Assembly: GCA_010093515.1 (NCBI GenBank) | Contig: MU001685.1 | Coordinates: 413,851-477,850 of the forward strand | Length of the DNA: 64,000 bases | Direction: 5' to 3' | DNA from: Lineolata rhizophorae | Lineage: Eukaryota; Ascomycota; Dothideomycetes; Lineolatales; Lineolataceae | Translations under genes and position numbers: made by a program | Part shown: piece by piece, positions 8,656 through 48,763 of the stretch | Layout of the letters: each line of letters starts with the position of its first letter | Numbering within the stretch: the first letter of the stretch is position 1 | Notes under the pieces: model-generated | The model's input: the letters and a program-made list of their open reading frames with translations, nothing else | Databases searched by the model: none | What the model was told of the DNA's origin: nothing

Positions 8656-8831
8656 GTAAGCAAGCTCTCCAATCAGGCTCGCCGACGTCATTCCTAGAGA
8701 CCCGTCCATATCCCCTCGAAAGTAATCGACAACGCTTCCATTGATACCAACGCAAAATCGAAAGAGCAACCCGCAAGCCTCCGACGGTCGCCCCCCCGGC
8801 TTCACAATTCCCGATTCCCCGATTCCCAACC

Positions 8832-10915
8832 ATGGCCCCCTCCGCCTCCTCCGGACCGCAATCCCGCCTCGCCCGCCTCGCCGCGCACTTCCTCGCGCCC
8901 TCCTCCGCACCCGAACCACCGTCGGCAACACCCACCGCGCCCGAGCCTTCTCCCCCGCAACCGCAGCCGCACGGCCTCAACTTCCACGCCCTATCCCCGA
9001 CCTTCTTCCTGCCGCGCGCGGCCGCCATCGAGCCCCACGCGCCGGCGATCCACCACGTGACCTCGAACGGGGCCATCCTGCGGCGCACGTACGAGTCGCT
9101 CTCGGAGCGGGCGCTCGGCTTCGCCTACTGGGCGTCGCGATGCGCGCGGGTGTCGCGCGTGGGGCTCGTGCTGCCCAACACGCCGGCGTTCCTCGAGGCG
9201 ACGTTCGGAGTCGGCGCGGTGCCGGGCGCGGTGCTGGTGCCGGTGAACTACCGGCTCAAGAGCGAGGACGTGGCGTACGTGCTGGAGCACGCGGGAGTCG
9301 AGGTCGTGGTTGTGGATCAGGAGTTTGTGGGGTTGGTGGAGGGGTTTCGGGAGAGGAATCCGCGCGTTAGGGTTCTGGTGGATGCGGATACGGATGTCGT
9401 GGAGGGGGAGCTGAGCGGCGAGTTCGACGCCGCGGTGCTGGAGGGGTTGCGGTGGGATCGGGAGAATGGGAAGATGGGGTGGGAGGGACTGATGGCGCAG
9501 GCGAGGGATGAGGAAGAGGTTTTTGCGCTAGCCTATACTAGCGGGACGACGGCGAGGCCGAAGGGCGTCGAGTACACGCATCGGGGGGCATATTTGGCGG
9601 CTATGGGGAATGTCATTGAGAGCGGGTTGAACTTTCATGATGGGAAGCGGGCAAGGTATTTGTGGACGCTGCCTATGTTTCACGCTATGGGTGAGTTTTC
9701 CCACTTGAAGGGTGGAGAAGCACCACCACGGCCGCCGTTCGGAGAGAGATCTTCGCAAGTGGCGCGGTGGTGCAGCTTCGACGCTCCTTCTTGAAGAAAC
9801 TGCGCGAGACTGATTCTTAGAAACTGGGGTTTGGCATCAGGCTGGACTTTCCCCTGGGCCGTCACCGCCGTGCGCGGCACCCACTACTGTCTGCGCAAGA
9901 TCGACTACGGACACATCTGGACACTGCTCAAGCACGAGGGCATCACGCATTTCAACGCCGCGCCCACGGTCAACACTCTGCTGTGCGCGGACCCGGCCGC
10001 CGAGCGGCTGCCGCAGCCCGTCCGCGTCACCGTCGCCGCCTCGCCACCGACTCCGCACCTTTTCGAGCTGATGACGCGCCTCAACTTGCAGCCCGTGCAC
10101 GTCTACGGTCTGACCGAGACGTACGGGCCCATCACGAAGGGCTACTTCATGCCGGCGTGGGAGCGCTTGACGCCGAACGAGAAGTACGGTCGCATGGCGA
10201 GGCAGGGCCACGGCTTCGTGACGAGTTTGCCGGTCAGGGTCGTGAAGAACGGGGATGACCTCCCTGAGGAGCACGTCGAGGATGTGAAGAGAGACGGTAA
10301 GGAAATTGGCGAGGTCGTCTTCGCAGGGAATATTTGCGCAAAAGGGTATTATAAGGATGAGGAGGCTACGAGGAAGCTGTTTGCCGGCGGTGTGCTGCAT
10401 TCAGGTGATTTGGCGGTTTGGCACGGAGATGGCGCTATCCAGATTCTGGACCGCGCGAAGGATATTATTATTAGTGGTAAGTTCTCCTGGCATCCATCTT
10501 GCGTGAATGTAGGGTACGGAGGAGAGATTGATAGACGCGACACTTTGCTTCTCCCAACGTATTGTTGCGGAAGTAGAAAGCTAACAATGGACGTCCAGGC
10601 GGCGAGAACATCTCTTCAGTTGCACTCGAGAGCATGTTAGCCATGCATCCGGACCTCCTCGAGGCGGGTGTCGTCGCGGTGCCGGACTCACACTGGGGAG
10701 AGCGGCCCAAGGCTTTTGTGACGGTGCAGGCAGGAAAAGAGCTGACGGGGGAGGATGTCATCCAATGGGCGAAGCATCAAAGCGCTATTAGCAAGTTCAT
10801 GGTGCCGAGGGAGGTCGAGGTGGTGCCGGAACTACCCAAGACGTCAACGGGGAAGGTGAAGAAAAACGTGCTGAGGGAGTGGGCCAAGGGCGCAGATAGG
10901 GCGAAGATCAGGTAA
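8832..10915 (+). CDS. AMP-binding acyl-CoA synthetase, possibly peroxisomal
   Basis: Three exons, 8832-9690, 9841-10476 and 10599-10915, give 603 residues. ANL-family motifs are all present: the P-loop-like YTSGTTARPKG (from residue 235), GLTETYGP (from 376), the hinge region with RAKDIIISGGENIS and the catalytic lysine in KTSTGKVKK (Lys584). The enzyme activates a carboxylic acid as acyl-AMP and transfers it to CoA; the overall pattern resembles medium-chain or aryl-acid ligases rather than acetyl-CoA synthetase. Residues 12-20 read RLARLAAHF, which fits the broad PTS2 consensus, while the C-terminus (AKIR) is not a PTS1, so import by PTS2 is possible; a mitochondrial presequence is the alternative. 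Both introns are phase 1 with GTGAGT and GTAAGT donors; the second has a CTAAC branch site. ATG 8832 sits in a good context (CAACCATGG). Substrate cannot be read. Confidence 0.9.
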
Positions 10916-46526: not shown

Positions 46527-46933
46527 TGCGGTAGGAGTGCCATGATGGATAAGAGAATGGGGTGTTGGTTGACGAGAAGATGAGTAGACCACAATATTTA
46601 GTCCCCCGGAGAGTTTTTTCAGGAGCGGAAACTTTGAGCTCGTGTTCTCGGCCTTGGTCCTCGCGATTTGAAGCTTCAAAGCTAGAGCCAATCAGGGAGC
46701 TCCAAGATGCCGAGGTCCAGATCAGACGATAGGAGCTTAGCCCCAACCCGGCCCCTACCTCGGCGGAGACATGCTTACACTCAGCTCCTATGCATCCACT
46801 AGTCGCTTATTGATGATATATGAAGACTACTTCCGGATGCAACGGCTCTAGAGCAAAGAGTTGATGGCTTTTGGAATCTCTTCTACTTCCCAAGTGTTCA
46901 AAAGTTTCGTGCTTTGAACTCAAGCTGCCAACC
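46527..46933. other. Promoter region of the enoyl-CoA isomerase gene
   Basis: 407 bp between two co-directional genes; contains the upstream gene's 3' UTR and one CCTCGG motif. Nothing else recognised. Confidence 0.55.
46758..46763 (+). promoter_or_regulatory. CCTCGG motif (FarA/FarB-type)
   Basis: 171 bp upstream of the enoyl-CoA isomerase start codon. FarA/FarB regulators of fatty-acid catabolism bind this hexamer in Aspergillus, and a peroxisomal beta-oxidation gene is a natural target. A single hexamer remains weak evidence. Confidence 0.35.
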
Positions 46934-48011
46934 ATGTCAGCTAACAAGTTCAACGACATCGTCGTCGAAGTCAAAGGCCAGATTGGAATAATCAAGGTTC
47001 GCCCAATACCTATTTCCTATCGTCCTCTTTCCTGAAATTGACGTTAGTGCATCCACCTTCCAGTTCAACCGGCCGAAGCAGCTCAACTCGTTTGGCGGCA
47101 ACCTTCTAGCTGAGACGGTACAGGCTGTCCGGGAGTTGAACGAACATCCGGAGACAGTGTTCACGGTTCTCACTGGCGAAGGGAGATTCTTCTCAGCGGG
47201 CGCAGATGTGAAAGGTTTGCCTTTTCGTCCTCTATCTACACACGTGGCCGTCTACTGACGCATATTCGGGAGTAAGGCGTGGCCAGCGCAACCATCGACT
47301 CGTTCAAGAACGATGCCGAGAAGAAGATAAAGTACCTCTCAGGCTTCCAGACCAGTAAGCGACCTTCCAATCCGAACCATTCGGCCTAGGCTCTAAATTT
47401 GGGGTCTTGCTCAGCTGTCGAGCTCCTGCGCTCCCTCATCGACCACAAAAAGGTCTTCGTGCTAGCCCTCAACGGCCCCGGCGTCGGTGGCGGTGCCGCC
47501 TGGTTCCAAGGCATCGCCGACGTGGTTCTGGCCGCGCGCGGCGCCTATCTGCAGGTGCCGTTCAGTGCGCTAGGCCTAGTACCTGAGGCAGGCTCGGCCG
47601 TGATGTTCGCGCAGAGCATGGGCGTGCACCGCGCCAACGACTTCCTCATGTTTGGGCGCAAGGTCAGTGTCGAAGAGATGGAGCAGTGGGGCATGGTGAA
47701 CCGCGTGTTCGACGCGCAGGGGTTTGGGGATAGCGTAGTCACGTTCCTTGAGGAGATGCTGAAGGTGAATGATGGGAAGAGCATGATTGAGACGAAGAGG
47801 TTGCAGAATGCACCTTTGAGGGATGCGAGAATCGTGGCGGTGTTTAATGCGATGGATGCGTTGGCAGAACGGTTCGTGGAGGACGCGCCGATTAAGAGGT
47901 TTGAGGCAAAGATGAAGGAGCTAGAAAGTAAGTTTGCCACGAAGGTTAATCATATCTACATTGCATATCTGACACTGAGCAGCAAAGTCGAAGGGCCGAT
48001 CAAAACTTTAG
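46934..48011 (+). CDS. Peroxisomal enoyl-CoA isomerase/hydratase family protein (ECI1-like)
   Basis: Five exons, 46934-46996, 47064-47214, 47277-47354, 47415-47927 and 47983-48011, give 277 residues. The crotonase fold is marked by RPKQLNSF, GEGRFFSAGADVKG and NGPGVGGGAAWFQGIADVVL (oxyanion-hole GVGGG). FSALGLVPEAGS carries the Glu expected to act as acid/base in delta3,delta2-enoyl-CoA isomerases of the ECI type. Such enzymes move the double bond of unsaturated fatty acyl-CoAs so that they can enter beta-oxidation. The last 55-nt intron (47928-47982, GTAAGT donor, CTGAC branch) joins GAA-A to CA-AAG, so the protein ends TKSKGRSKL: a canonical peroxisomal PTS1. Without this splice the frame runs on to 48133 and lacks SKL. 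The first and second donors (GTTCGC, GTTTGC) are non-standard, but flanking protein conservation supports them. Confidence 0.9.
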
Positions 48012-48367
48012 TACCCGAATGTTGGCGTTTAAGGGACTTGGATGACTGGTGCCGGATTGGGATCTGTATAAGCGCAAATTGGGTCAAATCCAGAGTACTC
48101 ATGCCACGGCATAATCATTTTACATGGAGGTGAGCAGCGTCTTGGATTTAAATGTAACCTTGTAGATAGCTGCTATGTACGTGTGACCATCAACGAGCGC
48201 AGCTTGCCGTACCACCTCCCAACCGGGTTAATCTATGCTATGAGTGTTGGGGTATTGACCGGGTCTTAAAACCATGAAATCCAGCCATTAGAGGCTGATT
48301 GGGAGAACTATCCATGCGCCGAACATCATTGTGCTCCGCCCATGATTCCATACTGTCCTCGAAGAGA

Positions 48368-48763
48368 TCACTCTTGAGTCTGCATGCTATTAGTATTATA
48401 TTCCACAATGAAAGCAGAGGGTAAGGCATGAAAATCACGTGCGCACGCGAAAAAGCTGCGCGTACGTACCTCGGGTGGTTTTCCGACCGGCTGGATCATC
48501 TTCTCGAGGAATTGAAGGCGCGCCTTCTCACGGGGGACACCCATGCCGATCGCCATGTACTCGAGCATTGCTGGATGGCCGACGTAGCTAGCCAAGCTAT
48601 CGCGATTGATGTTCGATATCCATTCAAAGGGCGTCGTATCAGCGTGACCTGTGCCTACATAGCGGGCCTGGAGCGCTTCGAGCTGCTGCTGAGCGCGCAA
48701 CTTGTCTGCCTAGATGCTTGTAAATATCTCGGAAGTATGAGTGTACGACAAACCGTGTACCAT
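48368..48763 (-). CDS. Splicing factor 3B subunit 5 (SF3b10/Ysf3)
   Basis: Three coding exons on -, 48763-48761 (the ATG alone), 48709-48470 and 48379-48368, give 84 residues starting M-ADKLRAQQQLEALQARY and ending KPPE-TQE. Landmarks are YVGTGHADTT, SNINRDSLASYVGHPAMLEY and MAIGMG. It is the small subunit of the SF3b complex of U2 snRNP, which binds around the branch site during spliceosome assembly. The length matches the family (about 85 residues). The first intron is 51 nt and starts directly after the start codon (GTACAC donor). The second is 90 nt with TACTAAT near its 3' end. The last exon encodes only three residues and the stop. The gene lies tail-to-tail with the enoyl-CoA isomerase, 356 bp between stops. 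Confidence 0.93.

Follow-up and report, generated by a model that had tools for sequence, protein, structure and literature searches.

The question raised by this locus is whether splicing decides where its protein goes. Within the window, by which we mean the whole stretch of 64,000 nucleotides of Lineolata rhizophorae DNA that was analysed, a gene on the forward strand (46934–48011) ends in a short exon specifying the peroxisomal targeting signal (PTS1) SKL, and this exon lies behind an intron of only 55 nt. A preliminary description had proposed that retention of this intron turns the signal off and gives the cell a second form of the enzyme.

Gene model and protein family

The gene is composed of five exons, all on the forward strand, which join without an internal stop to give 834 nt encoding a protein of 277 amino acids. 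Exon 1 (46934–46996) starts at the ATG and, like exon 3 (47277–47354) and the 29-nt last exon (47983–48011), follows from a frame-consistent model; it is further supported by the ECH_1/ECH_2 match of the joined product. Exon 2 (47064–47214) overlaps an ECH_1 match found in the search of the fungus's own genome (G000:C16:460905-461069), and exon 4 (47415–47927) is placed by the model and by a phmmer alignment. The spliced protein terminates in ETKSKGRSKL, with the SKL and the stop codon TAG carried by the last exon. The three upstream introns measure 67 nt (46997–47063, GTTCGC...CAG), 62 nt (47215–47276, GTTTGC...AAG) and 60 nt (47355–47414, GTAAGC...CAG). Retention of any of them introduces an in-frame stop, in the ORFs at 46871–47035 and 47136–47258 for introns 1 and 2, respectively, and as read from the sequence for intron 3.

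Pfam analysis of the spliced product gave matches to ECH_1 (PF00378, 1.2e-33) and ECH_2 (PF16113, 2.2e-16). Among the best 60 of 175 distinct matching sequences of solved structure, the top matches are chains of Eci1 (8.4e-24 and 1.1e-23), presumably from yeast; next among the matches listed come other chains of 3,2-trans-enoyl-CoA isomerase and those named enoyl-CoA delta isomerase 2. In the phmmer alignment Glu155, which is encoded by exon 4, stands opposite Glu158 of Eci1, which we take to be the catalytic residue. The gene product is thus a member of the enoyl-CoA hydratase/isomerase family, nearest to Eci1 among solved structures, and a predicted isomerase, in keeping with its original description as an enoyl-CoA isomerase. 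It resembles the Eci1-type delta3,delta2-enoyl-CoA isomerases in family, in the aligned glutamate and in possessing a C-terminal PTS1; what may set it apart from these relatives is a PTS1 that is SKL and is carried by a last exon of 29 nt. Relatives of the locus were also sought outside the fungus, and tblastn confirmed none of 35 pattern matches in prokaryote genomes and neither of two in viral contigs.

The terminal intron

The last intron (47928–47982, 55 nt, phase 1) has the donor GTAAGT, a branch-like CTGAC at 47969–47973 and the acceptor CAG, and is credible as an intron. Two statements of the preliminary description are upheld, that the spliced enzyme ends in GRSKL, the joined exons giving ...KSKGRSKL, and that retention shifts the frame (55 mod 3 = 1) and drops the SKL, with a stop at 48131–48133. 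The long tail without SKL that it predicted is indeed present in the retained frame (47928–48133), its computed length being 68 rather than about 69 residues. The product of the retained RNA would comprise 336 amino acids, that is, 268 residues in common with the spliced form and the 68-residue tail, which ends in TWR and contains no PTS1. Intron 4 is the sole intron of the four that meets no in-frame stop when retained. Enumeration of 96 combinations of donor and acceptor towards the gene's end led to a PTS1 in six cases, and in all six it was the same SKL.

On a simple score based upon the textbook consensus, intron 4 reached 7.0 while introns 1, 2 and 3 reached 4.0, 4.5 and 4.0. For comparison, further introns were picked by hand with conserved peptides as anchors; nine of eleven attempts gave an option (none was obtained for SF3B5 mid2 and MS d) and MS c proved to be the same place as MS b, leaving eight. 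Among the resulting 12 introns one scored above intron 4 (7.5) and two tied with it at 7.0, a ranking which is only indicative since, where an intron had several options, the top-scoring one was picked by the very score used for ranking. Our designation of a strong intron has as its basis the textbook consensus and this small hand set chosen by the same score, and on that basis intron 4 appears closer to the consensus than the other three introns of the gene. The full textbook intron pattern was counted 19 times in the sample read forward and 31 times in the reversed sequence, so that no enrichment was seen. A splice-site model trained on the genome yielded eight introns at first, which was too few, and noise in its relaxed version, and no support was drawn from it.

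Introns close to the stop codon are found elsewhere in this genome. Three of six ECH paralogues read possess late introns, situated 16 (C10), 36 (C8) and 50 (C13) residues from the end. The convergent neighbour of the isomerase gene, on the reverse strand at 48368–48763 (upper limit approximate; ORF end at 48368), encodes SF3b10 (SF3B5; Pfam PF07189, 1.5e-36), and a terminal intron of 90 nt (GAG/GTACGT...CAG) is seen there ahead of a 12-nt last exon specifying Thr-Gln-Glu-stop. In view of these genes an intron near the stop codon is, by itself, no sign of regulation.

The SKL end

The spliced product carries SKL at its C-terminus, a PTS1 tripeptide. In a 264 kb sample (the 64 kb window plus 20 stretches of 10 kb, approximately 9.8 kb of the total being N) 10,402 frames reach a length of 8 codons or more, and three of them terminate in SKL, the isomerase included. 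Since such ends are rare, and since this one stands in the right frame at the end of a protein whose family has peroxisomal members, it is unlikely to have arisen by chance. The two 3,2-trans-enoyl-CoA isomerases of Ustilago maydis carry the PTS1 ends ARHKL and AKSKL (according to the passages available of PMC9133605), and the peroxisomal proteome of Histoplasma includes Eci1 (available part of PMC13343957). An SKL end is therefore to be expected for an enzyme of this type, and it looks like its standard peroxisomal signal.

The 14 ECH_1 matches in the own genome lie in eight places, counted here as eight genes. The ends of six of the seven other ECH genes were read (C37, whose end was not reached, was left out) and are AKL (C28), SKL (C4 and C13), EKL (C8), ENA (C10) and KGR (C6). 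The C13 paralogue (L007, G000:C13:668824-669381) ends in PQAANSKSKL some 50 residues past its late intron. Two of three MaoC-domain matches, C19 and C29, also end in SKL, the third, a frame of 1856 amino acids, being left out. Within the window, an acyl-CoA synthetase-like gene (AMP-binding type, by eye) at approximately 8745–10900 on the forward strand ends in RAKIR and has no PTS1.

Comparison with known splice-controlled targeting

That fungi place a PTS1 under the control of splicing or readthrough, as the preliminary description stated, is confirmed by the accessible part of a review (PMC3798809). The cases there comprise GAPDH, phosphoglycerate kinase (PGK), TPI and the 6-phosphogluconate and malate dehydrogenases, each having a peroxisomal isoform beside a cytosolic one; splicing is reported to be responsible in U. 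maydis GAPDH, Aspergillus nidulans PGK, Yarrowia lipolytica malate dehydrogenase and Candida albicans 6-phosphogluconate dehydrogenase (PMC3798809). In the Y. lipolytica enzyme a 4-nt difference in intron size between the splice forms decides the PTS1 (Kabran 2012, as cited in PMC3798809). As in the isomerase the PTS1 end is set by splicing, but the malate dehydrogenase is described there as having cytoplasmic and peroxisomal coding isoforms, whereas for the isomerase a single product is expected from our reading of the sequence. In U. maydis GAPDH and in the PGK of A. nidulans the PTS1 is cryptic and, like that of the isomerase, depends upon splicing (Freitag 2012, cited in the parts available of PMC3798809 and PMC12316961); those enzymes are mainly cytosolic with a small peroxisomal part, whereas the form of the isomerase with the PTS1 would be its main one. 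More generally, the known enzymes with a controlled PTS1 in these sources have a job in the cytosol, while the isomerase is of a type belonging to beta-oxidation. In the titles, opening parts of abstracts and keyword passages searched in the literature, no case was met of an enoyl-CoA isomerase whose PTS1 is controlled by splicing. The mammalian ACBD2/ECI2 is described as a protein of both peroxisomes and mitochondria with dual affinity (available part of PMC9549241), which is not PTS1 control by splicing.

The PGK of the own genome, examined as a positive control of the mechanism, gave a PTS1 end in none of 105 splice combinations, and readthrough of its stop codon leads to SGSL. The GAPDH C-terminal domain gave no own-genome Pfam match, though all 14 controls were detected, and neither the own genome nor the search controls yielded a match to the acyl-CoA oxidase domain. 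To our knowledge GAPDH is to be expected in any fungus, and for this reason neither miss is read as absence: the missing GAPDH match most likely reflects a gap in the search or the assembly, and that for acyl-CoA oxidase could reflect a gap or a real loss. Stop codon readthrough was considered as a source of the PTS1 of the isomerase and dropped, as here the PTS1 precedes an ordinary stop.

The retained reading frame and alternative explanations

The proposal that regulated retention turns the PTS1 off, giving a cytosolic isoform with the 68-residue tail, draws on the fact that retention costs the protein its SKL while the frame stays open over a long distance, and it has a precedent in the control by splicing of the peroxisomal signals of other fungal enzymes (available part of PMC3798809). 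In a test with 5000 dinucleotide shuffles, a frame open for 68 codons arose in 2.6% of the shuffled versions of this stretch, and 1145 of 6600 tail-length windows outside long ORFs, unrecognised exons among them, were likewise open. This open frame is the sole positive evidence for a switch. Against it stands the composition of the tail, with a GC3 of 0.50 versus 0.78 in exon 4 and no Pfam match at E 0.001. Its codon score falls at the 46th percentile of 563 wrong-frame open windows, at the 36th of the 1145 open windows outside long ORFs and at the 8.5th of 388 in-frame coding windows, a result which is not decisive since 8.5% of the coding windows score lower still and long ORFs of the same sample served to train the codon table. 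By these measures the tail leans towards the non-coding class. The signals of intron 4 fit the consensus, which also speaks against a switch, and we know of no cytosolic task for this isomerase. Moreover, piggy-back import has been reported for yeast Eci1 and Dci1 (available part of PMC3781343), and one of the ECH paralogues here (L010), which ends in EKL, appears Dci1-like by eye; loss of the SKL may thus leave the location of the enzyme unchanged. In Pichia pastoris alternative splicing is reported to give rise only seldom to functional protein, with three exceptions by intron retention (available part of PMC3547764). Given the consensus-like intron, the tail leaning towards non-coding sequence and an enzyme type belonging to beta-oxidation, we did not retain the earlier idea that the isomerase is under splice control of its PTS1, and consider a retention switch very unlikely. 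The fuller version, in which the carbon source would control targeting by regulated retention and so provide peroxisomal and non-peroxisomal forms of a dedicated beta-oxidation isomerase, is likewise very unlikely.

Two other readings leave the PTS1 outside regulation altogether. The acceptor of intron 4 is of the NAGNAG type (GAGCAG, 47977–47982), and splicing at the GAG ending at 47979 rather than at the CAG ending at 47982 would also be in frame with SKL and add one Ala, so that two SKL proteins one residue apart could be made with no effect upon targeting. The upstream GAG lies just 7 nt past the branch-like A, and by the textbook consensus GAG is a weaker acceptor trinucleotide than CAG; use of this site would probably be minor at most, and we think it highly improbable that the pair of acceptors accounts for the locus. 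It could also be supposed that there is no intron at all, that the true protein bears the 68-residue tail, since without splicing the frame runs on to 48133, and that the SKL is accidental. The rarity of SKL-terminated frames (3 in 10,402), the PTS1s on the U. maydis relatives (passages available of PMC9133605), the presence of donor, branch-like and acceptor sequences together, and the tail being nearer to non-coding sequence all weigh against this supposition, which we regard as the least probable, indeed as extremely unlikely.

Probable constitutive splicing and its consequences

The gene model is consistent throughout, and its family, its frames and its SKL end are observed. They are very probably those of an ordinary Eci1-type gene of peroxisomal beta-oxidation, the terminal intron of which is spliced constitutively so that SKL completes the protein for import by Pex5. 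According to this explanation the 55-nt last intron would be removed from the RNA as a matter of course, and the 29-nt last exon would then supply the PTS1 to the end of the protein. Pex5 would recognise the SKL and the enzyme would be imported into the peroxisome, where it would presumably act as a delta3,delta2-enoyl-CoA isomerase in beta-oxidation. Any intron-retained RNA would represent splicing noise, and its protein would end in 68 unrelated residues.

Were a retention switch to operate here after all, splice-controlled targeting would reach a core enzyme of beta-oxidation, beyond the dual-use enzymes of carbon metabolism. Under constitutive splicing the consequence is one for annotation: a gene predictor which overlooks the 55-nt intron loses the PTS1 and reports a false tail of 68 residues, and the enzyme would as a result be dropped from the peroxisomal inventory of the fungus.
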